From: an uncultured Bacteroidales bacterium | GTDB taxonomy: Bacteria > Bacteroidota > Bacteroidia > Bacteroidales > Bacteroidaceae | Direction: 5' to 3' | Assembly: GCA_902786925.1 (NCBI GenBank) | Contig: CADAEK010000016.1 | Location: 1-64,000 of the forward strand | Length of the DNA stretch: 64,000 nucleotides | Shown: piece by piece, positions 23,671 to 63,512 of the stretch | Layout: each line of letters begins with the position of its first letter | How positions within the stretch are numbered: position 1 is the first letter of the stretch | Translations under genes and position numbers: made by a program | The notes under the pieces: model-generated | The model's database searches: none | What the model was told of the DNA's origin: nothing | The model's input: the letters and a program-made list of their open reading frames with translations, nothing else

Positions 23671-23735
23671 CGGTGTGAGTCAGACCGACCATTCCGGTGT
23701 GAGTCACACCGTCACTATCGGTCTGACTCACACCG
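23671..23735. repeat. Triple 17-bp palindrome array, version A (copy 1)
   Basis: Three units at 23671-23687, 23695-23711 and 23719-23735 are separated by 7-base spacers (period 24). Each is an 8-1-8 near-palindrome, CGGTSTGA-S-TCASACCG; the middle unit is exact apart from the centre. Spacers differ (accattc, tcactat). A 12-bp inverted repeat, CCTGCGCTACAA (23656-23667) with 23804-23815, brackets it. A second version-A array is at 43381-43445. Confidence 0.85.
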
Positions 23736-23786
23736 TTTCATAAGCACAGAAATTATACCGACAAAATTATTCTAACGATAAAAGAA

Positions 23787-23829
23787 GAAGCCTGCGTTAC
23801 GATTTGTAGCGCAGGCTTCCATGTTTTTA
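23787..23829 (+). terminator. Terminator downstream of the YhaM-like gene
   Basis: GAAGCCTGCG (23787-23796) pairs with CGCAGGCTTC (23810-23819), followed by CATGTTTTTAG. Its 3' arm can also pair with 23656-23667, upstream of the palindrome array. Confidence 0.7.
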
Positions 23830-24159
23830 GCACACCCTCCCATTGAAAATGGCTCTCAACAGCACGTAACAATCTCCGCTTTCTACATCACGATACAATC
23901 CCCCAGCAAAAGGGCTCTTGAACCGACGTACAAAAATCGGATAGAACCATATTGGCCTTCGTGCAAACAGCAGCGTTCCCCATCAAGTCAAAAAGAATCC
24001 ACCCCGCCATCGCAAACACGCACTTGATTCAAGACACAAATTCCATATACAGATGATACATTCACTTACAATTATGATACAAATCGCAGAAAATGAGGAA
24101 TATATACAAAGGTGAAAGAAAATGAAACATAAGAGAAAGAGAGAGTTATAAATAGTGCG

Positions 24160-24605: not shown

Positions 24606-24696
24606 CTGGAATATTCTGTATCATACGATGAGGTCGTGGCATACAATCGCCGGCAAGAGGCGCTTTAAGCCTTAAACCTCATACTTGTTTGCGGTA

Positions 24697-26868
<2,172 letters not shown>

Positions 26869-26915
26869 TTAGGAAGTTTATGAATGTGTTTGTTGTATAA
26901 TATATATAATGTGTA

Positions 26916-28574
26916 TCACAATGTCAAGACAACTTGTCCGCCAGTCTGCGATGTAGGATAGTAGAAGGCGGCATAGCGAGTGCCCATGAAGAGGCGACGG
27001 TAGTCAAAGCGCATCTTGTAATCCTTGGTACCAATTTGAGTAAAGGTCTTGCCATCGAGACTGTAGTAGAAATTAGCCGTGTCACGACCAGGGTTGAAAT
27101 CGCCGTCGATGCGGAGATAAATCTTCCCCACCTTGCCCTTAGGAAGCTTGACCGTTTCAACTTCTTTCGTAGCCACGTCAGTGATGGCCTTCGTGTCGTT
27201 TGTCAGTTGCACACTCTCTTCACTCATAGTTAGAGTGTATTGCCCCTTCTGAAGTTTAATGGTCAGAAGGCCTGAATCTCCATTAAATGCGGCAAAACCT
27301 GCACAATCGCCATCTTTCATCTGGCGAACATCGAGGCAAATAGTGTCTGAGCATGTTCCGCCCCAGGTGCGCCACGTCAGCGTGTTGCGCGCATCAAAGA
27401 TGGATTTGGCAAGCTCTGAGGTCTTCAAGACGAAGCCCTGAACAGGAGATGTCATACGGAAAGTGGCATCGTCGCGCAAGTTCTCTCCGAAACGAACTTT
27501 TTCGCCTTTCTGAGGCAGACGGGCGATATCACTCTTGATGTAGTTGTGGTTCCACTGGTAGTCCTTCTCGATATGAGCATAATCAGGATTCTGGTGGCAA
27601 GAGCACTGACCATCGAGGGTAACAGTGGCAGGAATCTTACCATCCCCTTTGGTGCCAAGAACTGGCCAGCCATCAATCCATGAGCAGGGTTCTACGGTAA
27701 GTACACGTCCTACACCACCACGGTCTTGGAACATCACGCCGTACCATTCGCCATGTTTGCCATTGACGATGGTGCCCTGACCGGCCAATGGGAAACCTCC
27801 GAAGTCACTCTTGAGAATAACCTTAGAGTCGTATGGACCTTCAATGTTCTTGCTTCGGTAGGCTATCTCCTCACGGCCTGTGCGAGGCCATGCAATGCAA
27901 AGGAGGTAGTACATGCCATCGTGCTTGATGACGCGGCTTCCTTCATGCAAGCCTTGTGGTTTACCGTTAAGCTGCAACTTCTTGCGAATGCCACCGGGCT
28001 TCTCTGCTGTGAGGTCGGGGGTCAACTCAACAAGATTGATGTCTCCACTTCCAGAGAACACGTACACACGATCGTCATCGTCAAAGAAGAGAGAAGAGTC
28101 GTGGTAAGCAGGAAGGCGGCTATGGAGCTTCCAGCCTTTAGCAGGGTCTGTTGTCTTGAAGACCATAGACTTATGTGGGTCGTCATTCGCTACGAAGAGC
28201 GCCCAAAAGGTGCCTTTATGATAACGAAGAGTGGTTGCCCACTGACCGCGGCCATACACGGTACCTTCTTTCAAGTCGTAACGAGGAGTGTCCTTGATTT
28301 CATCGAAGAGATAGGACACTGTTTCCCAATGCGCAAGGTCTTTACTCCGCATGATGGGAGCGCCAGGAAAAAGGTGCATGGTGGTGGTCACCAGATAGTA
28401 GTAATCTCCGACACGAATGATGTCAGGGTCTGGAGCATCTGCCCAAATAAAGGGGTTCTTCACCTGAATGGTTGGCTGCGTCTTGACCTCTGGAAGATCT
28501 GAATCAGCAGCATTCTGTGCACCAGCCATCAAGGCGGTGCACAGAACACATATAGTTAAATAGAACTGTTTCAT
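26916..28574 (-). CDS. GH43 beta-xylosidase/arabinofuranosidase
   Basis: 552 residues with a signal peptide ending near MAGAQ. The five-bladed propeller begins with NPFIWADAPDPDIIRVGDYY, where Asp49 of PDPD is the expected general base. AYHDSSLFFDDDDRVYVF holds the pKa-tuning Asp and GLHEGSRVIK the acid Glu. Residues after about 340 form a beta-sandwich typical of xylan-active GH43 enzymes. It probably removes xylose or arabinose from xylo-oligosaccharides in the periplasm. Its ATG overlaps the stop of the upstream GH43 by one base (TGATG), so the two are translationally coupled. Confidence 0.87.
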   Translation of the reverse strand: MKQFYLTICVLCTALMAGAQNAADSDLPEVKTQPTIQVKNPFIWADAPDPDIIRVGDYYYLVTTTMHLFPGAPIMRSKDLAHWETVSYLFDEIKDTPRYDLKEGTVYGRGQWATTLRYHKGTFWALFVANDDPHKSMVFKTTDPAKGWKLHSRLPAYHDSSLFFDDDDRVYVFSGSGDINLVELTPDLTAEKPGGIRKKLQLNGKPQGLHEGSRVIKHDGMYYLLCIAWPRTGREEIAYRSKNIEGPYDSKVILKSDFGGFPLAGQGTIVNGKHGEWYGVMFQDRGGVGRVLTVEPCSWIDGWPVLGTKGDGKIPATVTLDGQCSCHQNPDYAHIEKDYQWNHNYIKSDIARLPQKGEKVRFGENLRDDATFRMTSPVQGFVLKTSELAKSIFDARNTLTWRTWGGTCSDTICLDVRQMKDGDCAGFAAFNGDSGLLTIKLQKGQYTLTMSEESVQLTNDTKAITDVATKEVETVKLPKGKVGKIYLRIDGDFNPGRDTANFYYSLDGKTFTQIGTKDYKMRFDYRRLFMGTRYAAFYYPTSQTGGQVVLTL

Positions 28575-40012: not shown

Positions 40013-43000
40013 ATGTCAGTCAAAGCATGGAAAGAACAGGTGGTCATTCCCACCTACGAAGCGGGGAAACCCGAGAAAAATCCCATCTTCCTTGAGAAGC
40101 GTGTTTATCAAGGTTCCAGCGGTGTCGTCTATCCCTACCCTGTCGTTGAGAGCATTAGCGACAAGAAAGTGGACAAGGAGTGGCAAGCCATCTATCTGGA
40201 GAACGAGTATATCAAAGTGATGATTCTGCCCGAACTGGGTGGCAGAGTGCAGATGGCTTATGACAAAATCAAGCAGCGCCATTTTGTCTATTACAACCAC
40301 GTCATCAAACCTGCACTGGTAGGTTTGGCAGGTCCGTGGATCAGCGGCGGCATCGAGTTCAACTGGCCGCAGCACCACCGTCCCAGCACCTACACGCCGG
40401 TAGATTCCAAGATTGTGGAGAATGAGGACGGTTCCGTAACCGTATGGGTGAACGAGATGGAACGTATGTTTCACCAGAAGGGAGCCGCAGGCTTCACACT
40501 CCGCCCTGGATGCGCCTATCTGGAGATTCAGGGACGAGTGAGCAACCGGACTCCACTGCCACAGACATTCCTCTGGTGGGCCAATCCTGCTGTAGAGGTG
40601 AATGACGACTACCAGAGCGTCTTTCCACCAGACGTAAACGCTGTGTTCGACCACGGCAAACGCGCCGTGTCCTCCTTCCCCATCGCCACCGGCACCTACT
40701 ACAAGATGGACTACTCAGCTGGAGTGGACATCTCCAACTATCGGAACATCAAAGTGCCTACGTCCTACATGGCCGTAAACTCCAAATACAATTTTGAAGG
40801 TGGCTATGAGAACGACACCCACGGCGGCATGCTGCACGTGGCCTCGCACCACTTCTCGCCCGGCAAGAAGCAATGGACCTGGGGCAATGGAGATTTTGGC
40901 CGCGCCTGGGACCGCAACCTCACCGACGAAGCCACTCCCGAAGAGATGCAGCAATGGGGCATAGACCGAGAAGGCTTCCGCCCCTACATCGAACTGATGG
41001 CAGGTGTATATACCGAGAACCAGCCCGACTTCACATGGCTGATGCCCTATGAGGAAAAGCAGTTCACACAATACTTCATGCCCTACCGCGAGTTGGGCGT
41101 GGTGAAGCAAGCCTCAAAAGACGTGGTGATGAACATTGAGAAAGTGGACGGAGGCGTTCACCTTAAAGTGTTGGGCACCTCGAAACAGACGACAGAGGTA
41201 GTGCTGAAAGACAAGAAAGGACACGAATTCTATCGCAAGACTGTGATTCTCTCGCCCGAAAGCATCCTCGACGAGACCATCAACGTGGAAGGCGGCTCGT
41301 GGGGAGACCTTATCCTGCGTATCGGCAAACTCGTCTGGACACCTGAGCCAGACGACATCCGCCCTATTCCCGATGCAGCCGAAGCAGCTCTTGCGCCCGA
41401 AGACACAAAAACGAACGACCAGCTATACCTCACAGGACTGCATCTGGAGCAGTACCGCCATGCCACCTGGTCAGCCCTCGACTACTATGAGGAAGCCCTG
41501 CGCCGAGACCCTAACGACGTGCGTTGTCTGAATCAGACAGGTCTTTGGTATCTGCGTCGCGGACGCTTCGACAAGGCAGAAACTTACCTTCGCAAAGCCG
41601 TGAAAATATGGCAGAAGCGCAACCCTAATCCATATGACGGCGAAGCTATCTTCAACCTCGCCCTTACACTGAAATACCAGCAACGCCCACAAGAAGCCTA
41701 CGAGCTATTCTGGAAATCCACATGGAACAAGGCTTGGGCCGATGCAGGCTACTTCGAGGCTGCATGCATCAGCATCAGTCAAGAAAGACTCGACGATGCC
41801 CTTGACGAACTTAACCGCTGTCTCATCTTCAACCAGTGCAACCACAAGGCACGTGCACTCAAAGCGACCGTGCTCCGCAAACTGGGCAGAAACCAAGAAG
41901 CCCTTGCCCTGTGCGAAGAGTCACTCTGCCTTGACCACTTCAACTACGGCATCCTCTTCGAGAAGCACCTGCTCACACGTGACGAGAACGTACTGAGCAT
42001 GATGGTGGAACTGATGCACGGCAATATATACAATTACCATGAACTTGCCCTCGACTATGCACAAGCAGGACTCTGGCAGGAAGCCATCGACGTGCTCGGC
42101 CTTCCTGCAGTAGTGGAGCGTCAGGAACAGGCCAATCCGCTCACATTATATTATATAGGAAGTTTCAAGGCTGGACAAGGCAAGATAGACCAAGCAAAGG
42201 CATGCTTTGCCGAAGCAGAAAAGGCTGACAGCTATTGCTGCTTCCCCAACCGCCTGGAGGACATCAACGTTCTGAAGGCAGCCATCGCTGCCCATCCGCA
42301 AGGAGCTAAGGCCCCTTATTATCTCGGTTGCCTCTACTACGACAAGCGACAATACGACGAAGCAAAAACCTACTGGGAACAGTCCGAACTGCTTGACCCC
42401 TTCTTCCCCACCGTGCATCGCAACCTCGCCCTGCTCTACTTCAACAAGGAAGCCGACACGCAACGCGCCTTGCAGGAGATGGAGCTCGCGTTCAACCTTA
42501 ACCAGATGGATGCACGTGTCTTCATGGAACTGGATCAGCTCTACAAGAAACTGCAGCGCCCTCACGCCGAACGTCTCCTGAACTTTGAGACGTTTCCCCG
42601 TCTCGTGGCACAGCGCGATGACCTCATCCTCGAACACGCTACCCTGCTCAACCTTCTGGGCCGTTACAAGGAAGCGAAGACCATCATCGACCAGCATGTA
42701 TTCCACCCATGGGAAGGGGGCGAAGGCAAGGTGAGCGGACAGTATCAAATGAGCCGCGTCGAAATCGCCAAACAGCTGCTGAAGGAAGACCCTGCTTCAA
42801 CAGAGGCCAAACAGCTGCTCGAAGAGTGTCTCGTATTCCCACACTCGCTCGGCGAAGGGAAACTGCATGGAGCACAGGACAACGACTTCCTCTATTTTCT
42901 CGGACGCTACGAAGAAGGAACGGAAGGTCCGACCGAACCCGCTGCCGCCATGTACTACAACGACGCTAAACCAGACAAGATATTCTATGCAGGCCTCTGC

Positions 43001-43300
43001 TACCGCGCATTAGGACAAGAGGACAAGGCACGTGGACTCTTCCACAAACTCATCAATTACGGCCAACAGCACATCTTCGACCATGTCACCATGGACTATT
43101 TCGCTGTATCATTGCCCGACCTCCTTGTGTGGGACGGCGACCTCGACCTCCAGAACCGCATCCATTGCCACTATATGCTCGCCCTCGGCTACCTTGGCAT
43201 GGGCAACCGAAAGAAGGCAGAGCACCATCTCGCAGAAGTGAACAAACTCGACATCAACCACTTGGGAGCCTATTCACTCCGCACCTTTATGGAGATGTAA
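40013..43300 (+). CDS. DUF5107 domain protein with long TPR array
   Basis: 1095 residues, no signal peptide, so probably cytosolic. The first ~400 residues fit DUF5107, with a mutarotase-like beta-supersandwich: LENEYIKVMILPELGGRVQM, GISGGIEFNWPQHHRPSTY-like motifs and FLWWANPAVEVNDDYQ. From about residue 460 tetratricopeptide repeats run to the end (ALDYYEEALRRDPNDVRCLN, DDALDELNRCLIFN, AKTYWEQSELLDPFFPTVHR). Aldose-1-epimerase-like character near an MFS sugar porter suggests a role in sugar handling, but the activity is unknown to me. It is the second gene of the porter operon, followed by the palindrome array at 43381. Confidence 0.75.
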   Translation: MSVKAWKEQVVIPTYEAGKPEKNPIFLEKRVYQGSSGVVYPYPVVESISDKKVDKEWQAIYLENEYIKVMILPELGGRVQMAYDKIKQRHFVYYNHVIKPALVGLAGPWISGGIEFNWPQHHRPSTYTPVDSKIVENEDGSVTVWVNEMERMFHQKGAAGFTLRPGCAYLEIQGRVSNRTPLPQTFLWWANPAVEVNDDYQSVFPPDVNAVFDHGKRAVSSFPIATGTYYKMDYSAGVDISNYRNIKVPTSYMAVNSKYNFEGGYENDTHGGMLHVASHHFSPGKKQWTWGNGDFGRAWDRNLTDEATPEEMQQWGIDREGFRPYIELMAGVYTENQPDFTWLMPYEEKQFTQYFMPYRELGVVKQASKDVVMNIEKVDGGVHLKVLGTSKQTTEVVLKDKKGHEFYRKTVILSPESILDETINVEGGSWGDLILRIGKLVWTPEPDDIRPIPDAAEAALAPEDTKTNDQLYLTGLHLEQYRHATWSALDYYEEALRRDPNDVRCLNQTGLWYLRRGRFDKAETYLRKAVKIWQKRNPNPYDGEAIFNLALTLKYQQRPQEAYELFWKSTWNKAWADAGYFEAACISISQERLDDALDELNRCLIFNQCNHKARALKATVLRKLGRNQEALALCEESLCLDHFNYGILFEKHLLTRDENVLSMMVELMHGNIYNYHELALDYAQAGLWQEAIDVLGLPAVVERQEQANPLTLYYIGSFKAGQGKIDQAKACFAEAEKADSYCCFPNRLEDINVLKAAIAAHPQGAKAPYYLGCLYYDKRQYDEAKTYWEQSELLDPFFPTVHRNLALLYFNKEADTQRALQEMELAFNLNQMDARVFMELDQLYKKLQRPHAERLLNFETFPRLVAQRDDLILEHATLLNLLGRYKEAKTIIDQHVFHPWEGGEGKVSGQYQMSRVEIAKQLLKEDPASTEAKQLLEECLVFPHSLGEGKLHGAQDNDFLYFLGRYEEGTEGPTEPAAAMYYNDAKPDKIFYAGLCYRALGQEDKARGLFHKLINYGQQHIFDHVTMDYFAVSLPDLLVWDGDLDLQNRIHCHYMLALGYLGMGNRKKAEHHLAEVNKLDINHLGAYSLRTFMEM

Positions 43301-43380
43301 CGCAACATTTTTCCTTTCTTTCATACAACTTTATTCCCTCAAAGTAAGCCCCTTACATACCCCTTACAACACCACAAAAA

Positions 43381-46700: not shown

Positions 46701-49700
46701 TGGCACCCGCAATTCGTGAGGTGAACGACTACAATGCCATCGTCATGTGGGATCCGCGTGCCTTGTTAAAGCTGCGTGTCAACATGACAGGTGAGAACGG
46801 CACATATTCCAACATCGTTGATCTCTCAGATAATACGGATGCACTCAACAAACATCAGTTCAATTTCGACCTGACCAGCAAGTGCGTGGAATACGACTTT
46901 GACCTCATGATCATCCGCAATAGTTCACAGATGAAGATTTTCGGCACCTCGGTCAATGGTGTCTATCCCGACACACTCGCCGTGAAGGTCAAGAAGATGG
47001 ACAAGGGCGATTTGGCGAACTATCGCTATATGAACCTGGCCAGATTTGATTCCATCCGAGCCACCACCAAGCAGAGCAGCGTGGTGCTGAACTGGGGCAC
47101 GTCGGGTGGCGAGAGCGACTTCTACCGCGTATTGCGCCGCGACCATGGCACGACTGCATGGACGGACACCATTGCCGACAACATCCAGCAGACTTTCGTT
47201 GAGGACAAGAAGGTGTATGTACAGCAGGTGTACGACTACATGGTGGAGAGCATCACGCAGTGTGAAGGTGTACACATCGTCCGCTCGGATGTCGAAACAG
47301 GCAATTGCGAACCTACCGCAATGGTGTGCGGTTATGTACGCATGGCCGACGGCACCGGGATGGCTGGCGTGAAGGTGATCATCACACCAGAGGGTGACCT
47401 CACAGAGTCGCTCAACAGCGCACAATACGAGGTGTTCACCGACAACACGGGCTACTATGAAAAGAAAGGACTGAAATACCGTGGTGAAGGCAAGTTCAAA
47501 GTCAATGTGCCTATCACTGGCGACATGAAGCCTTTCACAGGTGGCGGCGAAATCACGTTCAGCACCAAAAGCAATATGCTCGCTAACTACAACTTCTACC
47601 AAGACCAGTATGTGGTTTACTCGGGTAACGTCTATTACAGCGACACCAGCATCCCCGTGCCGGGCGTATCGTTCAAGCTGGACGGCAAGCCCATGTACGA
47701 TGCCAGCAAGAACCTGATCGAGACCGACAACCAGGGTTCCTTCTCGCTGAGCATTCCTCATGGCGCACACAGCGTACAGGCTGTGAAGGACGGACACATT
47801 CTGGCCGACAACGGTTTCCTGATGAACCCTGACGAGAAAGTGGAAGACCGCACCCAGTACAATTTCGAGAAGAACGTGGCCAGCGTCTACATTTGGGACT
47901 CCACCACTGTGGTGCTGCGCGGTCGCGTAGTGGGTGGTGACATCGAGGGCAGCAAGCCACTCGGTTCTTCCTTGTCGAAAAACAACCTCGGTGACTCGCT
48001 GAAGATTGTGCTGCAGCTGGAGGGCGACAACACCTCATGGATGATTCGCAACCCGAAGGACGAGACCGTGAAGTCTGCCAGCTATAAGGTTCCATTCGGT
48101 GAAAAGAATGCCAAGGGCGTGGGCAAGGACACCACACAGGTCTATATCACCCGCCACATGCTGACCATTCGTCCTGACAGCAAGACGGGCGAATATGAGT
48201 TGAAGGTGCACCCCGCCAAGTATAAGGTGGTGGAGGTGTCGGGCCAAGGCTACGCCACCCTGTTCCAGCAGGGCAAGGTGGGCGAGACCATCGACCTGGC
48301 GTTCAATGTACAGGGTGACACGTGCGAATACAGCCGCATCTACCATGCCACACCTACCGTGGAGGTGACACAGTTCAACCCGGGCAGCGAAAAGTACTAT
48401 GGTGTGAAGAAGCTGAAGGCTACCGACAACATTGGCAACGAGGAATGGATGAACCTCTACTACTACGAGAAGCTCTCCGAGACCGACAGCATTGGTCGCT
48501 ATTCGTTCGGCTATCCAGTCTTTATGGCAGGTTCGCCTTACGGCTGGATGCTGCAGGCCTGCGAGAAGTACTACTATAATAATAATGTGAACCGTGAGCC
48601 TGACATCGTGAAGCTGGACAGTCGTGGCAAGATTACCATCAAGAACTACCTGATTGGCACGAACGACGGCGACTTGACAAAGACCCTCACGCTGGATGAA
48701 TATGGCGGTGCATCCTACATCTTCACACCTCAGAACACCACGTTCACGCTGGAGAACGACATGGCCCTGAAGAATGTCAGCATCACCTTGGAATATGACA
48801 GCTGCTTTTACGACATCAAGCCTTTTAACGGAGGAATCATCAAGGGATACGTGATGGCCACCAAGCCGAAGGCCGACGGACGCAAGGTGGTTGTTGCAGG
48901 CACACCGATGTTGTTCGACATCCTGCGCGACCCTCCAGGCAGCGGCAGTTCAGCCTACCTTGAGGAAGGTTCGAAGTTGAGCTATGGCTATTCGGCCGAC
49001 CTGACGGCTTCATTGGGCTACAAGGTAAAGGGTGCGACGGGTTCGAATGGAGAAACATATCATGGTACCGTGGCTGCTCCTAGTGGAGCTGGCGAATCAT
49101 CGGGCACCTTGACCCATTACAAGAGCGAAGACAACTTCGTTTTAGACATCAGGACCAACTTTGGCTATTCATGGAGCTATAGCTACAATCTAGACGTGAC
49201 GGAGCGCATCCAAACCAAGTCGGGACAGAAATGGATTGGCGGTAAGGCAGACCTCTTCATCGGCACTACCGAGGATGTGATTGTGCAGGATGCTATGGCT
49301 GTGCGCGTCATCCCCGAAAAGATGTACCAATTGGTGAAGCTGCATGAGGGTGGTTCCTTCACGATGGAAGACAAAGACGGCAACACAGCCACTGTGAAAG
49401 TGCCTGTCGGCACCACGAAGGTGTTGGCAAAAGGCACAGATGACCAGGGTAAGCCCATCTATCTGGTGCGCGACGAAGTGATGCAAGTGTCACCAACGGT
49501 CAAATCGACCTTCGTCCACTCACAGAACTATATTGAGAACGAGTTGCTGCCAGACCTGATGAAGATGCGCAATTCACTCTTGCTGCCTAAAGGCACTTCT
49601 GAGGCAGATGCCAAGAAACTGGCGAACAAGCAGGGTTATGCTACTTACATTAGTGCGGTGGATGCAGACCATGAGGACTTCGGTCTGAAATACACGACAA

Positions 49701-52700
49701 TCTATCCAGACGGTGGTGTAGCGACAGGTGACAGCATCGCGTCACTGAACAATGAGATGATGGCATGGGTAGGTATCCTCGCCCAAAATGAGCAGGAGAA
49801 ACTGTCTGTGCTGCCCACCAACCGCGTGAAACGCTACGACTTTGATGGCGGCATGTCCTCTATACAATACAGTGAGTCGTTCTCCACAAGTGAGAGCGAG
49901 TCACGCTACCTCCGCTATCCAGTGATTAACGGACTGGGAAATGTAGCAAGCGGCGTGGAAGCCAGCATTCTTTCGCCCCTCCTCAACCAACTTGAAAAAC
50001 TGATAAGAGCAAAGAAAGGAGCAAACGGGCTCACCACATACACTAATGTTAATGTTGACAACGATGGCAACATGAATGCTGTGGAGGTAAAGGTACTTGG
50101 CTCGACCTTCACCATCAAAAGAAATATGATTGCAGAGGCCAACTTCAATGACAAGTATAACACCTCAAAGACTCACTCGAAGAAGACGGGCTTCACGCTG
50201 TCGGCTGCATCCAAGTCGAGCCTAACAGTCGATGTCTATCGCACAGCAGGCCGTTACTCCATTGATAAAAATGCCAACCAGTTCAACAAGTTCACATTGG
50301 ATATGCTGGACGACATCCGTAACGGAAAGTTGACCCCCAACGCGCTCAACTACCTGCCCGACACTGTAAATGTTTATTCCAACTTTGTTTTCCGCACGGT
50401 GGGCGGTGTTACCTGCCAGCCATATGAAGGACAGCGCGTGACGAAGTGGTACATGACAGGAACAGAGCTGGATGCAGCTACGATTCCTGCAGACAAGCCA
50501 CGCATCTGGATTGAAGAGCCCGTGCAGAGCAACGTGCCATTCGACAAGCCAGCACGCTACGTTCTGCACTTGGCCAACGAGACAGATTATCCAGACCGTG
50601 CTACACTGGTGTTCAACTACTTCCTCCCTGCAGGCTGCAACCCGAAGGGTGCCAAGATTTGTGTAGATGGTGCACCACTGACAGGTACGGGAGCAAACGC
50701 AGTACTCTACCCTGCTGTCGATTCCAAGACAGGCAAGGTGAATGTGTTCACGAAGGAAATCACCGTTTATCCTGGCGATGACTTCGACTATGAAGACCTC
50801 GCCATCAGCCTGATGGATCCTGAGGATGCAGGCCGCGTGTTCACGGCGAACTTCTCGGCTCACTTCATCCCATCGGCTGGCGACATCAAGGTGACCACGC
50901 CAAGTGACCACTGGGTGGTGAACACGGAGAGTCCTTACGACGGCAACCGCAAGGCTTGGTATATGCCTGTGCGCATCGAAGGCTTCAACGTGAATGGCCG
51001 TGGGTTTGACCACATTGAACTGCAATACAAGCTCACTACCCAGGGCGAGAAAGACTGGGTAAGCGTCTGCTCATACTATGCAAACGATTCGTTGCGCCAG
51101 AAAGCAAGCGGTGTGACCGACACGATTCCATCGAACGGCATCATCGTGGCTCCATTCTATGGCGAGGTGGATCCTGTGGAGCAGTACTACGACCTGCGTG
51201 CGGTGGTTTATGCACGCCACGCTGGTGGTTACCTGACCAACGCTTCGCCCATCCTGACAGGTATCAAGGATACGCGTCTGCCACGTCCGTTCGGCACACC
51301 AGAACCTACCGACGGCATTCTGGGCATCGGTGAAGATATCAAGATTGCCTTCTCTGAACCGATTGCCAGCAACTATCTGAGCAAGATTAACAACTTTGAA
51401 GTGCTGGGCACTCCTGTCAGCACCAATATCTCCACATCAACGTCGGTCACCTTCAACGGCGAGAGCACCATCGGCTTCACGCAGGGTAACCGCAACATGA
51501 AGGGCAAGAGCTTCACGGTGGATGTGATGGTGAACCCTGCATCCGACAGAGGCGAAATGACCATCTTTGCGCATGGCGGTAGCGAGAAGGGCCTGCGATT
51601 CGGCCTCACCGCTGACCGGCACTTGAAAGCCGAGGTAAACGGCACCAAGGTTGTGTCAAACAAAGCCGTTCAGTTCAACAACACACTGCACCAGATTGCC
51701 TACACGCTGGAACAAGGCGCAAAGGACATGACCATCACCTTCTACGATGGCAGCACCCTCATCGGCACCAAGACTATCAATGGCGTGTATGAACAGAATA
51801 CACCCATCTACATCGGCGTGGATGAAGAGCAAGAAGAATTCTACAAAGGCAACATGTTGGAGTTCCGACTTTGGAACCGTCCGATGGATGGCGCCGATCT
51901 GGATGATTACAGCGGCAAGACCCTGACAGGCTTCGAAAGCGGTCTGCTCGACTACTACAAACTGAACGAAGGCGAAGGCAGCTTCAGCTACGACAAGGCG
52001 CCAGGCAGCTTAGACCTCAATCTGGCTAACCACACCTGGAAGCGACCTGTCGGCATCTCGATGAAGCTGGACGGCAAGAATGGCGTACAACTGAATACGA
52101 ACCAGAAGTTCAACCGCTCGAAGAACCACGACTACACACTGATGTTCTGGTTCCGCACCAGCGACGAAAATGGCACATTGTTATCGAACGGTGAGGCACA
52201 GCGCGGACAGAGCGACCAACTCAATATCGGTTTGGAAGACGGTGCGCTATATGTACGTTCCTCTGGTTTCAAACACAAAACAGATTCGTATGTCGATGAC
52301 AATGAATGGCATAGTTTCGCCATGACCGTATCACGCAACCGCAATGTAGCTAACATCTATGTGGACAAGAGAATGGTGGAAACATTCGCTGCCGACAGCT
52401 TGAGCGGCTTCGAAGGCGACATCATCTCATTGGGTGCCACTTACGACAAGAAAGGCATGAAGGATGCTCTGACCGGCAACATCGACGAGGTGGGTATGTT
52501 TGAGAGCGTACTGCCAGTCGACCTCCTCCTCAAGTACACGACCCACACGCCAATCGCAACAACGAAACCATTGATGTTCTACCTCGACTTCGGTCGTTCG
52601 GAGCACCTGAACAACAATGAGATGCGCTTGCAACCTACAGGCATCAGCATCAAGCGTTATGTAGATGGACAAAGCAAGATTCTGGAGCGCTGCGACACGC

Positions 52701-54667
52701 TGATGACTGTGGACGAGGCCTTCGTGGATCGCGACTACTATGCGCCCATGAACAGCAATGCTCAGCTGGAGAACCTCAAGTACAGCTATGTGGCGAAGGA
52801 CAACGAGCTGCTCATTGAGTTGGAAGAACCAGATTTCATGGTGGAGAAGACCAACGTCTATGTGACCGTGAAGGAGATTCCTGACATGCAGGGCAACCTG
52901 ATGGCAAGTCCTTTGACGATGAACCTCTATGTGTATCGCAACCCTCTGCGCTGGAACATGAAGAAGCTGGATGAAGAAATTGACTACGGTCAAGAGAAAT
53001 CCATCGAAGTCAAGGTGCAGAATCTGAGCGGACAGACACAGAACTTCGACATCACCGACCTGCCAATCTGGATTACAGCTTCGAAGACCAGCGGCACTGT
53101 CAGCGCACTGGGTGAGGAAATCATCACACTCAACGTTTCTCCTTACATCAATATTGGCACCTACACCGAGCAAATCACACTCGTGGGCTACAATAGCATG
53201 TCTGAACCGTTGCCCATCACGCTGAAGGTGCGCGGTGAGGAACCTGAGTGGGCTGTCGGTGACAAGGTGAAGAAGATGAACCAAAGCATGATGATGGTGG
53301 CACGCGTGAAGATTAATGGTGTAGTGACCCACTCTACAGAGGACATCATCGGCGTGTTTGACGACGACAACCAGACGCTGGGTGTAGCACACATTGAGGT
53401 GGACAACACCGCCTATGCCCACGACGTTCATGCCTTCCTGACCATCTATGGCTACACGAACGATGACGGCACGCAGCCCAACCTGAACTTCAAGTTCTTC
53501 CAGGCATCATCTGGCAAGGTGTATAATTTGGAACCTGAAGATGAACAAATCTACACCTTCAAGAACAATGCCATCGTCGGCACTGCAGACAAGCCCGTCA
53601 TTTTGGAGAATGACTTCAACAATGTACAATGGATGACGCTGAAGGCTGGATGGAACTGGGTATCTTTCAACGTAGTACCTGAGGATGAGAATGTAACCGT
53701 AGGCGAATTCTTGAACAAAGCTGCAGGATGGGAGCCTGGCGATATCATCACCTCGGTGAACGGAACCAACGTGCAGCAGTGGGTTTACCATGAAGTGGAG
53801 AACACGAAGAAGACCGCAGCACGCACCTATAAGTGGGATCACGAAGACGAAAAGATAGACATTGATGCTACATTGATGTACAGAATTTACTCTTCCAGCG
53901 CCAAGACGGCCTACTTCGAAGGATGGTCAACCTACGAGGCTATCAAGCTCCGCAAGGGATGGAACCGTATTGCTTACCTCTCTTCCATCAACCTGCCAAT
54001 TGCTCAGGCACTGAGCGGCTACCAAGCTAATGCTGGTGATGTCATCAAGTCACAAGACGCATTTGCCGTAGCAACCATCATTCAAGACCACATCGTCTGG
54101 AAGGGTTCACTGCAGTACCTGGAGAAAGGCAAGGGCTACATGCTGAAGCGTCAGGCTGAAGATGAGACAGAGTTCTACTACCCACTCTACTGGAATAACA
54201 GCCGCTACAGCGGCAACACCACCGCAGCATCGGCACCTCGCCGCAACGCATCGGTCAACACATCAACAACGATGAACATCGTGGCTAGCGTAGCCGGTGT
54301 GGAAACAGAACCAGAAGACGTGCTGGTTGTTTACCGCGGCACCGAGAAATTGGCTGAAGCTGTAGCAGACGAAGATCAGAACTACTATCTGAACATCGGT
54401 TGCGATACTCAGTCGAAAGAAAGACTGACCTTCACGCTGGAGCGCGACGATGAGGTAGTGGCAACGACCCGCAGCCTGATTCCTTACGAGGCCAACGATG
54501 TACAGGGTACACCTGACGTGCCTACAGAAATCAACTTCACACCTGTTGACCCATCGATGTATGCTGACGGCAATTGGTACACGCTCACAGGTATCCAGTT
54601 ACAGAGCGCACCAAAACAGCCAGGCTGCTACATCCACAACGGCAAAGTGAAATCAGTTAAGTTTTAA
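43745..54667 (+). CDS. Giant secreted multidomain surface protein (3640 residues)
   Basis: One uninterrupted frame of 10.9 kb with a signal peptide (MNYKQLLVTLLVLLGFGLPMEVRA). In order: an Ig-like beta region with fibronectin-type segments (to ~480); two GLUG-like blocks (about 500-650 and 730-880: FDGCGHTLTL, GGLIGLV, GGIVGHCG); carboxypeptidase-regulatory-like turns (about 1200-1420: AGVKVIITPEG, VPGVSFKLDGK); a large unassigned middle; two LamG/concanavalin-like domains (about 2570-2950: LEFRLWNRPM, NIDEVGMFESVLP); a BACON/Ig-like domain near 3110; and a module near 3190-3290 similar to the next gene's product. The end (WYTLTGIQLQSAPKQPGCYI then NGKVKSVKF) is a sorting-type tail. It is probably a cell-surface adhesin or polymer-binding protein. 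The boundaries are approximate. Confidence 0.75.
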   Translation: MNYKQLLVTLLVLLGFGLPMEVRADDFTYNAGHYSCMQVALDKVRFTLPTGNLYRTNDGVQEGYVYVSVDGGADQTLLAWKCDKYSQVDEGCKIQAFQDGKFTLTGKVKDGDYTFSKSNGEISYKLNHNDDNSDHYTTTVDWQVPYSMRGKKLTLKVWAHVNWGAAGDWHVPSASERKVLLNWDCPAAPAVDVTLNDPMLSYDRAHANQTMMTYSVTANSIKSLVLHYTDAITGQTYTQNMSTKDLVGFAYIPADRPWKNIYMTGRVVNMEQKEVDIAAPDASAWMTCNMLHHPKDFKVEMMQNGTAQLSWSVDEPTRQDIDEGDFFEIQRNLMGTTDATDPYWTTISMDVSFKQGVKDYTFTDNTLMDSYKGYPVAYRIRRSATAIWAWGPGSGHQLYMSPSVFSLPQIDNATVQRTGIWTDDAHNVQFNFDFNAKHDSKGRTLIHTQAEWDAFKTLYSKDEATKNSILVLKDENSWEVFKKIVESGYTKVTAVMANDITLNDFTYRINGFAGEFDGCGHTLTLKYYSNNIESAAPFRAVNGGYFHNLTVAGSITSTAKFMGGLIGLVNYDASAVTIENCNIIATLTSKVNGDASSGGFIGIMESGTTVNFKNCSFHGKLQGNKSNNNAGFVGVAVSKTTINFAGCMFDPESLPTDMTNCRTFARADQTATVTFDDKCYYTRTYCAYNDGDEAYFVINNENDWDVFLEIVNDAAGSNKVNAILGADFSISKAVNCEQGYYGIFNGNGHTLNVNLNSESTQYMAPFVRVKGGSTFKNLHVTGSVRGAIHCAGLIGTGDRQGGEIKIENVWVSTEITCTSTHAGGIVGHCGDSPSNPYTINNCLFDGKVTSTVSGQYVGAIIGWGQGPNNKITNCLENGSYENFAHCGMNYADGNSCYGNNGSNTNNYTYHNWGEVGNDYKNAGNILLLHTKLGSGWKINRDPYPSMTTVDELLSDAVRQGKSAENMSVEEILAVYGTDWQEFGNSVAPAIREVNDYNAIVMWDPRALLKLRVNMTGENGTYSNIVDLSDNTDALNKHQFNFDLTSKCVEYDFDLMIIRNSSQMKIFGTSVNGVYPDTLAVKVKKMDKGDLANYRYMNLARFDSIRATTKQSSVVLNWGTSGGESDFYRVLRRDHGTTAWTDTIADNIQQTFVEDKKVYVQQVYDYMVESITQCEGVHIVRSDVETGNCEPTAMVCGYVRMADGTGMAGVKVIITPEGDLTESLNSAQYEVFTDNTGYYEKKGLKYRGEGKFKVNVPITGDMKPFTGGGEITFSTKSNMLANYNFYQDQYVVYSGNVYYSDTSIPVPGVSFKLDGKPMYDASKNLIETDNQGSFSLSIPHGAHSVQAVKDGHILADNGFLMNPDEKVEDRTQYNFEKNVASVYIWDSTTVVLRGRVVGGDIEGSKPLGSSLSKNNLGDSLKIVLQLEGDNTSWMIRNPKDETVKSASYKVPFGEKNAKGVGKDTTQVYITRHMLTIRPDSKTGEYELKVHPAKYKVVEVSGQGYATLFQQGKVGETIDLAFNVQGDTCEYSRIYHATPTVEVTQFNPGSEKYYGVKKLKATDNIGNEEWMNLYYYEKLSETDSIGRYSFGYPVFMAGSPYGWMLQACEKYYYNNNVNREPDIVKLDSRGKITIKNYLIGTNDGDLTKTLTLDEYGGASYIFTPQNTTFTLENDMALKNVSITLEYDSCFYDIKPFNGGIIKGYVMATKPKADGRKVVVAGTPMLFDILRDPPGSGSSAYLEEGSKLSYGYSADLTASLGYKVKGATGSNGETYHGTVAAPSGAGESSGTLTHYKSEDNFVLDIRTNFGYSWSYSYNLDVTERIQTKSGQKWIGGKADLFIGTTEDVIVQDAMAVRVIPEKMYQLVKLHEGGSFTMEDKDGNTATVKVPVGTTKVLAKGTDDQGKPIYLVRDEVMQVSPTVKSTFVHSQNYIENELLPDLMKMRNSLLLPKGTSEADAKKLANKQGYATYISAVDADHEDFGLKYTTIYPDGGVATGDSIASLNNEMMAWVGILAQNEQEKLSVLPTNRVKRYDFDGGMSSIQYSESFSTSESESRYLRYPVINGLGNVASGVEASILSPLLNQLEKLIRAKKGANGLTTYTNVNVDNDGNMNAVEVKVLGSTFTIKRNMIAEANFNDKYNTSKTHSKKTGFTLSAASKSSLTVDVYRTAGRYSIDKNANQFNKFTLDMLDDIRNGKLTPNALNYLPDTVNVYSNFVFRTVGGVTCQPYEGQRVTKWYMTGTELDAATIPADKPRIWIEEPVQSNVPFDKPARYVLHLANETDYPDRATLVFNYFLPAGCNPKGAKICVDGAPLTGTGANAVLYPAVDSKTGKVNVFTKEITVYPGDDFDYEDLAISLMDPEDAGRVFTANFSAHFIPSAGDIKVTTPSDHWVVNTESPYDGNRKAWYMPVRIEGFNVNGRGFDHIELQYKLTTQGEKDWVSVCSYYANDSLRQKASGVTDTIPSNGIIVAPFYGEVDPVEQYYDLRAVVYARHAGGYLTNASPILTGIKDTRLPRPFGTPEPTDGILGIGEDIKIAFSEPIASNYLSKINNFEVLGTPVSTNISTSTSVTFNGESTIGFTQGNRNMKGKSFTVDVMVNPASDRGEMTIFAHGGSEKGLRFGLTADRHLKAEVNGTKVVSNKAVQFNNTLHQIAYTLEQGAKDMTITFYDGSTLIGTKTINGVYEQNTPIYIGVDEEQEEFYKGNMLEFRLWNRPMDGADLDDYSGKTLTGFESGLLDYYKLNEGEGSFSYDKAPGSLDLNLANHTWKRPVGISMKLDGKNGVQLNTNQKFNRSKNHDYTLMFWFRTSDENGTLLSNGEAQRGQSDQLNIGLEDGALYVRSSGFKHKTDSYVDDNEWHSFAMTVSRNRNVANIYVDKRMVETFAADSLSGFEGDIISLGATYDKKGMKDALTGNIDEVGMFESVLPVDLLLKYTTHTPIATTKPLMFYLDFGRSEHLNNNEMRLQPTGISIKRYVDGQSKILERCDTLMTVDEAFVDRDYYAPMNSNAQLENLKYSYVAKDNELLIELEEPDFMVEKTNVYVTVKEIPDMQGNLMASPLTMNLYVYRNPLRWNMKKLDEEIDYGQEKSIEVKVQNLSGQTQNFDITDLPIWITASKTSGTVSALGEEIITLNVSPYINIGTYTEQITLVGYNSMSEPLPITLKVRGEEPEWAVGDKVKKMNQSMMMVARVKINGVVTHSTEDIIGVFDDDNQTLGVAHIEVDNTAYAHDVHAFLTIYGYTNDDGTQPNLNFKFFQASSGKVYNLEPEDEQIYTFKNNAIVGTADKPVILENDFNNVQWMTLKAGWNWVSFNVVPEDENVTVGEFLNKAAGWEPGDIITSVNGTNVQQWVYHEVENTKKTAARTYKWDHEDEKIDIDATLMYRIYSSSAKTAYFEGWSTYEAIKLRKGWNRIAYLSSINLPIAQALSGYQANAGDVIKSQDAFAVATIIQDHIVWKGSLQYLEKGKGYMLKRQAEDETEFYYPLYWNNSRYSGNTTAASAPRRNASVNTSTTMNIVASVAGVETEPEDVLVVYRGTEKLAEAVADEDQNYYLNIGCDTQSKERLTFTLERDDEVVATTRSLIPYEANDVQGTPDVPTEINFTPVDPSMYADGNWYTLTGIQLQSAPKQPGCYIHNGKVKSVKF

Positions 54668-59997: not shown

Positions 59998-61362
59998 ATG
60001 AGCACAAAGCAAAAACGCTTCATCCTTGCGGAAGACGAGATTCCAACGCAGTGGTATAACATTCAGGCTGATATGGTCAACAAGCCTCAGCCCCCTATTC
60101 ATCCTGCCACCAAGCAACCGCTGACGGTGGACGACTTGGCACACATCTTCCCAAGAGAGTGCTGTGTACAAGAACTGGACACCACACATGCATGGATAGA
60201 CATTCCCGAGGAAGTGCGTGAGAAATATAAATACTACCGCAGCACGCCATTGGTGCGTGCCTACGGCCTTGAAGAGGCGCTCGGCACTCCTGCCCACATC
60301 TACTTCAAGAACGAGAGTGCTTGCCCACTCGGTTCTCACAAAATCAACTCTGCCCTACCACAGTGCTACTACGCCAAGATGGAGGGCACCACGAACGTGA
60401 CTACCGAAACCGGTGCAGGACAGTGGGGAGCAGCCTTGTCGTATGCAGCCAAGCTTTATGGACTGGACGCCGCTGTCTATCAGGTAAAACTCACCATGCA
60501 GCAGAAGCCATACCGCTCTAGCATCATGCGCACATTCGGTGCAGCCGTGACAGGTTCTCCTTCCATGTCCACTCGCGCAGGTAAGGATATCATCACCAAA
60601 GACCCCACTCATCCAGGCTCACTCGGCACTGCCATCTCAGAGGCTGTGGAGCTTGCCACTACCACTCCCAACTGCAAATACACACTCGGCTCTGTGCTGA
60701 ACCACGTGGGTCTGCACCAGACCATCATTGGTTTGGAAGCAGAGAAGCAGATGGCAATGGCTGGCGAATACCCCGACATGGTGATTGCCTGCTTCGGCGG
60801 CGGTTCCAACTTCGGTGGCATTGCCTTCCCATTCATGCGTCACAACATCCTCGATGGCAAGAAGACTGAGTTCATCGCTGCAGAGCCAGACAGCTGTCCT
60901 AAGCTCACTCGCGGTCAGTTCCGCTACGACTTTGGCGACGAAGCTGGTTACACTCCCCTGCTGCCTATGTTCACGTTGGGGCACAACTTCAAGCCCAGCA
61001 ACATCCATGCAGGCGGCCTGCGTTACCACGGTGCTGGTGTCATCGTCTCTCAGTTGCTGAAAGACGGTTTGATGAAGGGTGTGGATATTCCACAGCTCGA
61101 AACATTCGAGGCTGGTATGCTCTTTGCCCGCACTGAGGGCATCATCCCTGCCCCTGAAAGCACTCACGCCATTGCTGCCACTATCCGCGAGGCCAAGAAG
61201 TGCAAGGAGACTGGCGAGGAGAAGGTGATCCTCTTCAACCTTTCTGGCCATGGCCTCATCGATATGCCAAGCTACGAGGCCTACATCAACGGTGACTTGC
61301 AGAACTACACTGTCACAGACGAGGATGTGGCAAAGAATATCGCAGAATTAGATAAGCTCTAA
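59998..61362 (+). CDS. trpB: Tryptophan synthase beta chain, TrpB2 type
   Basis: 454 residues, longer than classical TrpB (~400). The PLP lysine is Lys115 in LGSHKINSAL; ETGAGQWG and the phosphate loop CFGGGSNFGG are intact. The N-terminal extension (RFILAEDEIPTQWYNIQADM) is typical of TrpB2, which makes tryptophan from indole and serine and often works without TrpA. No other trp genes are in the window. It is cytosolic. Its TAA overlaps the following ATG by one base (TAATG), an odd coupling to a secreted glycosidase gene. Confidence 0.9.
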   Translation: MSTKQKRFILAEDEIPTQWYNIQADMVNKPQPPIHPATKQPLTVDDLAHIFPRECCVQELDTTHAWIDIPEEVREKYKYYRSTPLVRAYGLEEALGTPAHIYFKNESACPLGSHKINSALPQCYYAKMEGTTNVTTETGAGQWGAALSYAAKLYGLDAAVYQVKLTMQQKPYRSSIMRTFGAAVTGSPSMSTRAGKDIITKDPTHPGSLGTAISEAVELATTTPNCKYTLGSVLNHVGLHQTIIGLEAEKQMAMAGEYPDMVIACFGGGSNFGGIAFPFMRHNILDGKKTEFIAAEPDSCPKLTRGQFRYDFGDEAGYTPLLPMFTLGHNFKPSNIHAGGLRYHGAGVIVSQLLKDGLMKGVDIPQLETFEAGMLFARTEGIIPAPESTHAIAATIREAKKCKETGEEKVILFNLSGHGLIDMPSYEAYINGDLQNYTVTDEDVAKNIAELDKL

Positions 61363-63443
61363 TGAATATCCGACATTTATTATTCAGCATCATCGTCTCT
61401 TGTGCCGCAACAGCTGTGGCGCAAGAGACGTTTCGTTTAGGCACGGCCATCAATCCCGATGGCGTGAAGTTTGAGGTTGACAGCAAGGGCTTCATCATTG
61501 GCGGCAAGCATGTGCTGCCTGTGATGGGCGAGATTCACTATGCCCGTGTGCCAGAGCAGGAATGGCGACGCGAAATTCAGAAGATGAAGGCAGGAGGCAT
61601 CACAGTTGTGGCCACCTATGTCTTCTGGATTCACCATGAGGAAGAAGAAGGAAAGTGGGACTGGAGCGGCAACAAGAACCTGCGCAAGTTCATCACCATC
61701 TGCAAAGAAGAGCAGATGCACGTGGTGCTGCGCATTGGTCCCTTCTGTCATGGCGAGGTCTATCAAGGCGGTTTCCCTATATGGCTGACAGACAAAGCGC
61801 AGAGCGATCCCAAGCAATACAAGTTGCGCTCAGAGGCCAAGGGATTCATGGAGGCGACACGCAACCTGTACAGCAACATCTTTGCGCAAGTGAACGGCCT
61901 GCTGTGGAAGAACGGCGGTCCCATTGTGGGTGTACAGATTGAGAACGAGTGCCGAGGTCCCTGGTCGTACTATATGGCTCTGAAAGATATGGCGGTGGAG
62001 ATTGGCTTCGACACACCTTTCTACACTCGCACTGGTTGGCCCAAGCTGAACGGGAAAGAGGAATTCGGCAAACTATTGCCGCTCTATGGTGACTACGCAG
62101 ACGGTTTCTGGGACAGAGACTTGAAGGATATGCCAGGTGACTACAAGAATGCGTTCATCATGAAAGACACACGTCTTTCAGCGGTGATTGCCACTGAAGC
62201 GCTGGGAAAAAACCAAAGCACAGAAATGAGTTCTACCGACCTTGCCTACCCTTACCTCACTTGCGAACTGGGTGGCGGCATGATGCCATCTTACCATCGG
62301 CGCATCAATATGAGCGGACGGGAAGTGAAGCCGCTCGCTATCTGCAAGCTTGGTTCTGGTTCCAACCTCCCTGGCTACTATATGTACCATGGTGGCACCA
62401 ACCCCTATAACCCCAAGCATACGATGGCTGAGACACAGGCCAGTCCTGTGACCAACTACAACGATATGCCCCACATGAGCTACGACTTCCAGACCCTACT
62501 CGGTGAGATGGGACAACCCAACCCTGTCTCATGGAACGAAAGCAGACTCTTGCATCAGTTTCTTGCCGACTTCGGCAACGAGTTGAGTCAAATGGACGTT
62601 GACACTCTCTCGGAGCACTATGCCCGTCGCGGTTCCTTCGAGTTCTTCAACGACTACGTGCGCATCCTCAACGAAGGCGGCACCTCATACGTTACTCCTC
62701 GCAACTGGCAAGTAACTCCTGACGCTACTATTGGTTGGGCAACTGTTGAGCCGTTCTGCAAAGCCGACGGCATTCTCTATTTCATTCCCGTTGACGGCAA
62801 GAAGCCTCAACTCTCCATCAACGGGAAGACCTACAACGCTAAACTCAACAAGCCCTTTAAGGCAGCAGACATGACCTTTTGTGTGCTTTCGAAAGAGAAA
62901 GCCATGACTGCCTATAAGATTGACGGCAAACTGCACTACTCTGATGGCATTCTCTTTAAGGATGGAGCTCGCATCATGGAAGAGACGTGGAACACGCTAC
63001 CCACCAAAGTCAATTTTGCGCTTGCTAAAGAGCATGGCGGTTTGCGTGAGGTAAAGATGGGCAGTCAGAAAGTGGCAGCACAGCCGACTGAGGAAGATTT
63101 CGGCAAGGCAGCCACATGGGTTATCAGCAACTTGAACGAGCTGAACAAGAATCTTGACCTCTATCTCCAAATCTCCTACCGTGGGGATGTCGCCCGCATT
63201 TATGCAGATGGTCAACTCGTCGAGGACAACTTCTGGAACGGCAAGCCCATGCTCGTCCGCCTCTCCGACCTCATCGGCAAGAAGGTGGAACTCAAGATTC
63301 TTCCCCTCGGGAAAGACTACCCCATCTACCTGCAGAAAGAGCAGAAGGCAGAACTCAACAAAGCATCTAACGGCCTTCTCCTCTCGTTGGATAGCATTCA
63401 GGTGATTGAACGACGCACCCTGAAACACACAACTGAAGAGTGA
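61362..63443 (+). CDS. Secreted GH35 beta-galactosidase
   Basis: 693 residues with a signal peptide (MNIRHLLFSIIVSCAATAVA). The barrel begins FIIGGKHVLPVMGEIHYARV and contains GGITVVATYVFWIHHEEEEG and VLRIGPFCHGEVYQGGFPIW. The acid/base Glu lies in VGVQIENECRGP and the nucleophile is probably the Glu of CELGGGMMPS. C-terminal beta domains follow (YLQISYRGDVARIYADGQLV). GH35 enzymes release terminal beta-galactose, for example from xyloglucan or galactan. It overlaps trpB by one base and is followed within seven bases by a palindrome array. Confidence 0.85.
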   Translation: MNIRHLLFSIIVSCAATAVAQETFRLGTAINPDGVKFEVDSKGFIIGGKHVLPVMGEIHYARVPEQEWRREIQKMKAGGITVVATYVFWIHHEEEEGKWDWSGNKNLRKFITICKEEQMHVVLRIGPFCHGEVYQGGFPIWLTDKAQSDPKQYKLRSEAKGFMEATRNLYSNIFAQVNGLLWKNGGPIVGVQIENECRGPWSYYMALKDMAVEIGFDTPFYTRTGWPKLNGKEEFGKLLPLYGDYADGFWDRDLKDMPGDYKNAFIMKDTRLSAVIATEALGKNQSTEMSSTDLAYPYLTCELGGGMMPSYHRRINMSGREVKPLAICKLGSGSNLPGYYMYHGGTNPYNPKHTMAETQASPVTNYNDMPHMSYDFQTLLGEMGQPNPVSWNESRLLHQFLADFGNELSQMDVDTLSEHYARRGSFEFFNDYVRILNEGGTSYVTPRNWQVTPDATIGWATVEPFCKADGILYFIPVDGKKPQLSINGKTYNAKLNKPFKAADMTFCVLSKEKAMTAYKIDGKLHYSDGILFKDGARIMEETWNTLPTKVNFALAKEHGGLREVKMGSQKVAAQPTEEDFGKAATWVISNLNELNKNLDLYLQISYRGDVARIYADGQLVEDNFWNGKPMLVRLSDLIGKKVELKILPLGKDYPIYLQKEQKAELNKASNGLLLSLDSIQVIERRTLKHTTEE

Positions 63444-63449
63444 CAAAAT

Positions 63450-63512
63450 CGACGTCGTCGACATCGGTTTGCCGACATCGACGAGGTCGGTTGGTCGATG
63501 TCGACGACGTCG
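63450..63512. repeat. Triple 17-bp palindrome array, version B
   Basis: Units at 63450-63466, 63473-63489 and 63496-63512 have 6-base spacers (gtttgc, gttggt), period 23. Each is 8-1-8: CGACGTCG-T-CGACATCG, CGACATCG-A-CGAGGTCG and CGATGTCG-A-CGACGTCG, with seven of eight positions palindromic. The sequence differs from version A, but the number, size and symmetry of units are the same. Confidence 0.8.

Follow-up and report, generated by a model that had tools for sequence, protein, structure and literature searches.

Three intergenic arrays of short palindromic units lie in a 64,000-nucleotide stretch of DNA from an uncultured Bacteroidales bacterium (contig CADAEK010000016.1, positions 1 to 64,000; hereafter the window), and comparison with related genomes revealed that such arrays, where conserved, keep their loci between species, sometimes changing sequence class in place. 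The usual explanation of interspersed palindromes in bacteria is that selfish elements left them behind. We tentatively prefer to read these arrays as vertically inherited, position-conserved docking platforms at the DNA level for a dedicated DNA-binding protein, which would recognize their sequence and assemble on each in several copies. The source genome (2.59 Mb, 92% complete) is that of an uncultured gut-type bacterium, and the named relatives with which it was compared are metagenome-assembled genomes (MAGs) of Bacteroidales.

Arrays in the window and in the source genome

All three arrays lie where a preliminary description of the window, made from its letters, had placed them; arrays and arms are recorded without a strand. 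The first two, at 23671-23735 (units 23671-23687, 23695-23711, and 23719-23735; spacers 23688-23694 and 23712-23718) and 43381-43445 (units 43381-43397, 43405-43421, and 43429-43445; spacers 43398-43404 and 43422-43428), have one common unit sequence, a period of 24, and 7-bp spacers, as that description had said, and were designated type 1. The third, at 63450-63512 (units 63450-63466, 63473-63489, and 63496-63512; spacers 63467-63472, GTTTGC, and 63490-63495, GTTGGT), was designated type 2. Its described period of 23 was exact, and the spacers, described as mostly 6 bp, were both of that length. Six matches to the type-1 unit with up to three mismatches were found in the window against 0.36 expected, and none of 100 shuffles reached six.

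When up to two mismatches were permitted, the type-1 unit gave 112 matches in the source genome versus one for a reversed control pattern. A pattern that permitted spacers of 4-10 bp retrieved 32 perfect triplets, all 32 of which were 65 bp long with 7-bp spacers, and 36 type-1 arrays were counted when up to three mismatches over the array were permitted. A type-2 unit taken singly stands out less (58 matches versus 25 for its control), and at least 10 type-2 triplets with a period of 23 were found in the stretches of the source genome examined, which comprise 783 kb from 41 sources chosen mostly around arrays. A de novo scan of these 783 kb for three equally spaced near-palindromes returned 42 above thresholds, and the same scan after shuffling of 3-base blocks returned none. 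The preliminary description had named an absence of further triplets, or arrays that prove to be parts of known transposon ends, as outcomes that would speak against its proposal; neither was found, and the search that it recommended turned up many further triplets in the source genome and its relatives. Two type-1 arrays in a state of decay, their units carrying several mismatches, were also seen, at C3:142280 of the source genome (G000), which has a counterpart in a sister species, and at C22:8348 of G301.

Conservation at orthologous loci

The first 180 kb of contig C3 of the source genome was compared with the sister species, in which the blast segments bearing arrays are 90-95% identical. 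All 11 arrays in these 180 kb were found at orthologous sites, with none gained or lost. The unit cores were conserved: type-1 arrays differed at 3 of 336 core positions, 5 of 72 G/C-variable (S) positions, 10 of 112 spacer positions, and 44 of 320 arm positions, and type-2 arrays at none of 108 core positions and 19 of 120 arm positions, counts that include the decayed array at C3:142280. All five S-position changes were C/G swaps, and all were at unit centers. The first array of the window has an ortholog in locus L134 with one mismatch in 65 bp, and the second is identical over all 65 bp in locus L130. The type-2 array is identical over all 63 bp in G014, within an alignment of roughly 2 kb at 85.6% identity.

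The sequences of two source arrays, L038 and L040 (C3:73774 and C3:109351), appear exchanged between the corresponding loci of the sister species (G169, C21:75325 and 110984), possibly through gene conversion or two independent changes.

Loci used by arrays of different types

Orthologs were defined by at least 45% protein identity over 60% of the shorter protein, and genes adjacent to arrays in a relative were compared with other genes for how often the ortholog in the source genome also lay at an array. At the loci of the named MAGs this was the case for 29 of 36 array-adjacent genes versus 5 of 185 others, in 2 x 2 comparisons in which one array may be flanked by two counted genes; 26 of the 29 had type 1 on both sides, and three had type 1 versus type 2. 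The corresponding counts were 15 of 15 versus 1 of 124 in G169, all of the same type, and 2 of 2 versus 0 of 15 in G113, representing one locus. For G098, which carries the further types 1' and 3 described below, they were 5 of 9 versus 1 of 68 (p = 3.6e-5), the five genes representing three loci. Repetition on new DNA gave 2 of 5 versus 2 of 42 for G098 (p = 0.051) and 4 of 7 versus 3 of 37 for G304 (p = 0.0075). In G113, G098, and G304, the arrays compared were of other types than those of the source genome.

Individual loci are indeed used by different types. L066 and L128 are the same intergenic region, occupied by type 2 in the source genome and by type 1 in RUG14560. L083 (type 2) and L085 (type 1) are likewise one intergenic region, in which G014 again has type 2. 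The type-7 array of G113 and a type-4 array of G042 each lie at a locus common with an array of the source genome. For three type-1' arrays, the stop codon is the one that type-1 arrays of the source genome follow, and the distance to it is equal (62/62, 32/32, and 30/30 bp). The changes from type 1 to type 1' and from type 2 to type 3 look gradual, and between types 1 and 2 one seems to have replaced the other.

Anatomy of the arrays

The overall layout is an arm, three (sometimes four) dyad-symmetric units of 16-17 bp at a spacing of 21-24 bp, and the inverted arm. Types 1 and 2 are both flanked by loosely conserved inverted arms, which in the source genome read CTTCCTGCACCTCAAAAA ... TTTTTGAGGTGCAGGAAG; arm information content peaks in the first 18 bp and has faded at about 34 bp. 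In the window, the left arm of the first array (23654-23670, TTCCTGCGCTACAATTG) is a diverged version of the common arm CTTCCTGCACCTCAAAAA, the second array is preceded by a left arm with an A-tract (43366-43380, ACAACACCACAAAAA), and the type-2 array is followed by its right arm (63513-63535, ..AGAGGTTGAGGAAGCGCCC). Half-sites are inverted around the spacers, which are 7 bp in type 1, 6 bp in types 2 and 3, and 4 bp in type 4. Type-1 units begin with CGGT and end with ACCG, type-3 units begin with CGGA or CGAT, and in type 2 the motif CGTC lies inside the symmetric unit rather than forming a one-sided tag. The arms, the spacer classes described below, the switching of types at loci, and in-place inversions are all features beyond the preliminary description. 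Its count of exactly three units holds for the window and nearly always elsewhere, the exceptions being a four-unit type-1 array in L104, four-unit arrays in G306, and type 4, an AT-rich type with four units in all three arrays seen. The L104 array is orthologous to L073 of the source genome, which has three units, and the number has changed within the locus.

Three positions of the 17-bp type-1 unit vary between G and C, and its half-sites were named alpha (CGGTGTGA) and beta (CGGTCTGA). They were analyzed in 123 type-1 arrays with perfect units and 120-bp flanks, a set from which decayed arrays were excluded. Exactly two betas were present in 102 of the 123 arrays, three in 13, and one in 8, and 223 of 246 array halves had exactly one beta. 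In units with one beta the center base is nearly always fixed, with alpha-C-beta or beta-G-alpha in 185 of 201.

The spacers had been described as not conserved, which did not hold for type 1. They fall mainly into two classes, X and Y, which we defined after inspecting them; of the 83 arrays that could be classified, 63 had one X and one Y, 15 had two X, and five had two Y, and the spacers of 40 of the 123 arrays fitted neither class. Flank-based grouping reduced the set to 80 nonredundant arrays. In these, the two spacers of one array were unlike each other, with one pair within one mismatch versus 7.4 expected when compared directly and one versus 7.9 expected when compared inverted. Flank words avoided complementarity (four identical versus 10.6 expected), and mirror-identical beta patterns were rare (15 versus 24.9 expected). 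When the source genome was separated from the other 48 arrays, the flank-word effect was clear in the former and weak in the latter, and the reverse was true of the beta-pattern effect.

Two structural readings were rejected. For arms acting as a compensating stem, an apparent covariation across species vanished on shuffling within the source genome and within two groups that we had split by arm dialect, and the covariation is therefore read as a dialect difference and not as compensation at the level of the locus. The idea that half-sites encode a particular hairpin fold was examined by hand and abandoned, since the common configurations fit no single fold.

Distribution of the array types

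The type-1 pair pattern was found in 4 of 301 genomes of the family, all four of them among the 21 sampled from the genus of the source genome. Among 45 genomes of that genus, type-1 triplets were present in seven (36, 28, 32, 37, 31, 8, and 1 copies), the type-2 pair pattern in 13, and type-3 triplets in two, with 93 and, in G098, 115 copies. The named type-1 carriers among the matches listed are MAGs labeled Bacteroidaceae, Prevotellaceae, or Bacteroidales and include RGIG3223 (from goat reticulum), RUG418, RUG14560, and Tb.RUG.104, where RUG presumably stands for rumen. In 319 kb of further genomes of the genus, G098 was found to have types 3 and 1', G042 to have type 4 (AT-rich, with four units), and G113 to have a single array of type 7. 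With types 1, 1', 2, 3, 4, and 7 in one genus, the suggestion of an element class with changing sequence but constant unit number, size, and symmetry was supported.

Hybrid type-2/type-3 arrays or units, with the center GGG in a type-2-like unit, were observed at C50:32618-32703 of G306 and C4:118648 of the source genome, and such hybrid units suggest that type 3 may have grown out of type 2. A loose two-unit match to type 3 at C3:124442 of the source genome was without counterpart in the sister species and was left out of the array counts. Six palindrome settings were tried on 366 kb from five genomes outside the genus, and the 6-4 setting alone gave matches, four in number and weaker. One of these, in G003, has clear anatomy, with four units between arms. 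In G010, also of another genus, TGGTGGAGTGCCACCA-like units with a period of 22 and without clear arms were seen at L255:16117 and L258:13101. No viral contig in IMG/VR exactly matched the type-1, type-2, or type-3 pair pattern, and virus-borne arrays were set aside on that basis.

Genomic position and neighboring genes

Genes were called with a simple open reading frame (ORF) script. Of 120 arrays with a gene on either side, 41 lay within ORFs that the script had called and were excluded; these ORFs were judged spurious because each spans its array, and placement was taken as extragenic. For the other 79 arrays, the distance to a gene 3' end was at most 164 bp in 89 of 97 measurements, versus 31 of 61 for distances to a 5' start. 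The placement of the arrays 3' of plus-strand genes, as first described, is correct for the window, where they follow genes for an HD-domain protein (22647-23552, plus strand; 118 bp from stop to array), a protein with DUF5107 and TPR domains (40013-43300, plus strand; 80 bp), and a GH35 family protein (61362-63443, plus strand; 6 bp). It does not extend to a general rule, which is nearness to a gene 3' end and not to a plus-strand gene. Among 31 arrays in tandem context, counted without a formal test, neither strand nor orientation showed a visible bias with respect to the gene, and a specificity for one RNA strand was rejected on these same arrays.

The neighbors of the arrays are presumably unrelated housekeeping and secreted-protein genes, to judge by eye from their first residues. 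Neither a transposase nor a regulator recurred beside the arrays of the source genome. A single ORF of 3640 amino acids (43745-54667) lies directly 3' of the second array of the window, and at 24697-28574 GH10 plus esterase and GH43 genes adjoin in a cluster of the xylan-degradation type.

Interpretation

The conservation at individual loci, the fixed geometry, the dyad symmetry, and the indifference to gene orientation are the reasons that we favor a binding platform at the DNA level that selection has maintained. The preliminary description had offered a protein-binding array or a REP-like mobile sequence (REP, repetitive extragenic palindromic); protein binding is still the best reading, and the mobile sequence fared poorly, as detailed below. 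From sequence we infer binding, function, and mechanism as follows. A dedicated protein of several specificities would bind the units, several copies per array, and the array sites would follow changes in the specificity of that protein. The role would be a chromosomal one, in architecture, topology, or a domain boundary between transcription units, and probably not regulation of the neighbors, since these have no obvious common function. A bolder proposal, possible in our view though doubtful, is that a trans-acting factor changes its specificity over time and that its recognition sequence is then rewritten, without change of place, at multi-operator sites that are dispersed over the chromosome and conserved in locus. 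Such turnover would produce species dialects at orthologous loci, with at least two systems coexisting per genome and exchanging loci.

Several observations weigh against docking of a dedicated protein or against replacement in place. With about 30% of the source genome read, no binding protein was found; the families recurring beside its arrays were few, and comprised large secreted-looking proteins (nine proteins at seven arrays) and groups of two or three. The half-site grammar lacks an explanation under independent operators, which predict neither one beta per array half nor anticomplementary flank words. The low divergence of the cores could reflect gene conversion and not selection. Three comparisons in the shared-locus test fell short of significance, namely G127 (1 of 3 versus 2 of 13, p = 0.49), G014/G262 (3 of 6 versus 0 of 2, p = 0.36), and G042 (1 of 1 versus 0 of 14, p = 0.067), and G141 and G306 gave no usable pair. 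Distances for type 3 versus type 1 mostly differ (146/78, 50/77, and 152/38 bp), and those of L185 (type 3) and L038 (type 1) are 18/16 bp on one side and 200/89 bp on the other, so that the co-location of these two types may be something other than in-place change. Because the type-1' distances match while the type-3 distances differ, in-place replacement is established best for types 1 and 1'.

Among the alternatives, mobile palindromes like REP sequences, bacterial interspersed mosaic elements (BIMEs), or miniature inverted-repeat transposable elements (MITEs), nonautonomous, spread by a transposase acting in trans, and now mostly fixed, are in our estimate an unlikely origin. The arrays are, as these would be, dispersed extragenic palindromes with inverted arms; type 3 reaches 93 and 115 copies in two genomes, and the arm and spacer dialects vary between species. 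A co-occurring Y1 transposase, for which the preliminary description had advised looking, was sought with Y1_Tnp (Pfam PF01797), the sole transposase family searched. Weak partial matches above the cut-off were obtained in the type-2 carriers G063 and G309 (E = 1.2e-6 and 1.7e-5), and weaker ones below it in G127, G081, and G014. None was obtained in the source genome or in most of the array-rich relatives (G169, G306, G155, G098, G304, G262, G113, and G042 had none), and seven genomes with Y1_Tnp matches at E < 1e-18 had no matches to types 1, 2, or 3. Mobility is further opposed by the absence of gain or loss at the 11 loci compared, by the lack of a recurrent transposase beside the source arrays, and by conservation that fades outward from position 1 to about 34 without a sharp tip. 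No clean empty site was seen in the four pairs aligned, and no systematic search for target-site duplications was made. Membership in the REP family that is mobilized by REP-associated tyrosine transposases (RAYTs) was rejected, as a cognate Y1 protein is lacking in the source genome and most array-rich genomes and a GTAG/CGTC end tag is lacking as well.

The succession of half-site, 6-7-bp spacer, and half-site could instead be the core of a tyrosine-type recombinase site, or nested repeats could be flipped by template switching; either would allow in-place inversion of a unit, a spacer, or an entire array. We regard such recombination-competent sites as decidedly unlikely, although inversions do occur. 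The reverse complement of one type-2 array matches its ortholog exactly (no mismatches inverted, 11 direct), with the arms in place, and the inverted orientation fits better in 2 of 12 type-2 ortholog pairs; the diverged type-1 pair L116/L125 looks partly inverted by eye. The orientation of type-3 spacer A was 10:7 between perfectly inverted units versus 16:1 elsewhere (40 arrays, no formal test), and the C/G swaps at unit centers, which make up all five S-position changes, together with the dissimilarity of the two spacers of an array both ways, are also in keeping with flipping. Against this, array inversion is rare, and 30 type-1 ortholog pairs picked for display all match in the direct orientation with 0-8 mismatches. 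Type-1 spacer X was oriented 14:6 between perfectly inverted units versus 55:46 elsewhere, with no clear extra flipping, half-sites of 8 bp are short, and passive template switching during replication gives flips without an enzyme.

Very improbable, in our judgment, are transcription terminators or RNA structures at the 3' end that act on the neighboring gene. Besides their nearness to gene 3' ends, many copies have a layout of A-tract, hairpin, and T-tract, and six RNA folds were predicted to be strong (z of -4.3 to -10.1). Relative to transcription, however, the T-tract was on the exit side in 31 of 45 cases and on the entry side in 30 of 45, and a directional terminator was rejected on this test of gene orientation. 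Several of these intergenic regions also appear, by eye, to contain separate terminator-like hairpins, type-4 units are AT-rich, and asymmetric units would place a mismatch in the stem. Rfam at the gathering score gave no matches in the window and just a tRNA in five further loci. Clustered regularly interspaced short palindromic repeats (CRISPR) were dismissed from spacers of just 6-7 bp with a limited set of words, a judgment made on the spacers, with cas genes not sought.

If the arrays are indeed docking platforms, they provide a set of binding sites with which to find a new chromosome-organizing or recombination protein of gut Bacteroidales. What binds them, why there are three units, and how dozens of sites change together have become directly testable questions.

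Comparison with known systems

Literature searches returned no description of such arrays by title or displayed abstract, and unit-derived sequences used as terms gave no papers. The sites matS and parS are dispersed short palindromes, single and widely conserved, that are read by a dedicated protein. The arrays are also dispersed short palindromes with a putative dedicated protein, but as triplets with several specificities and turnover. In core sites of tyrosine recombinases, such as dif and those of CTnDOT, the arms are inverted and enclose an overlap of 6-8 bp, the sequence of which can vary. Array half-sites of types 1-3 are similarly inverted around a 6-7-bp segment, but the arms are short, the arrangement is tandem, and no cargo was seen. 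A Porphyromonas gingivalis element resembles the arrays in having repeats inside an inverted-repeat element of a Bacteroidales species and differs in being described there as a minisatellite within a MITE (PMC4596501).

By analogy, the arrays appear closest in behavior to BIMEs and, for the change of dialect, to DNA uptake sequences (DUS). BIMEs bind gyrase and IHF. The arrays resemble REP sequences and BIMEs as dispersed extragenic palindromic units with few spacer motifs near gene 3' ends (PMC3733652). They differ in the lack of Y1 already noted and of a GTAG/CGTC end tag on the type-1 unit, in their nearly fixed unit number and period, in their orthologous loci, and in the several unrelated unit sequences found within one genus. 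The DUS of Neisseria, present in about two thousand copies, are often inverted repeats at gene 3' ends, and their dialects change between species while the sites persist. The arrays likewise lie near gene 3' ends and change dialect at persisting sites but, unlike DUS, are multi-unit elements of fixed geometry, present in tens to about a hundred copies per genome (36 type-1 arrays in the source genome and 115 type-3 arrays in G098).

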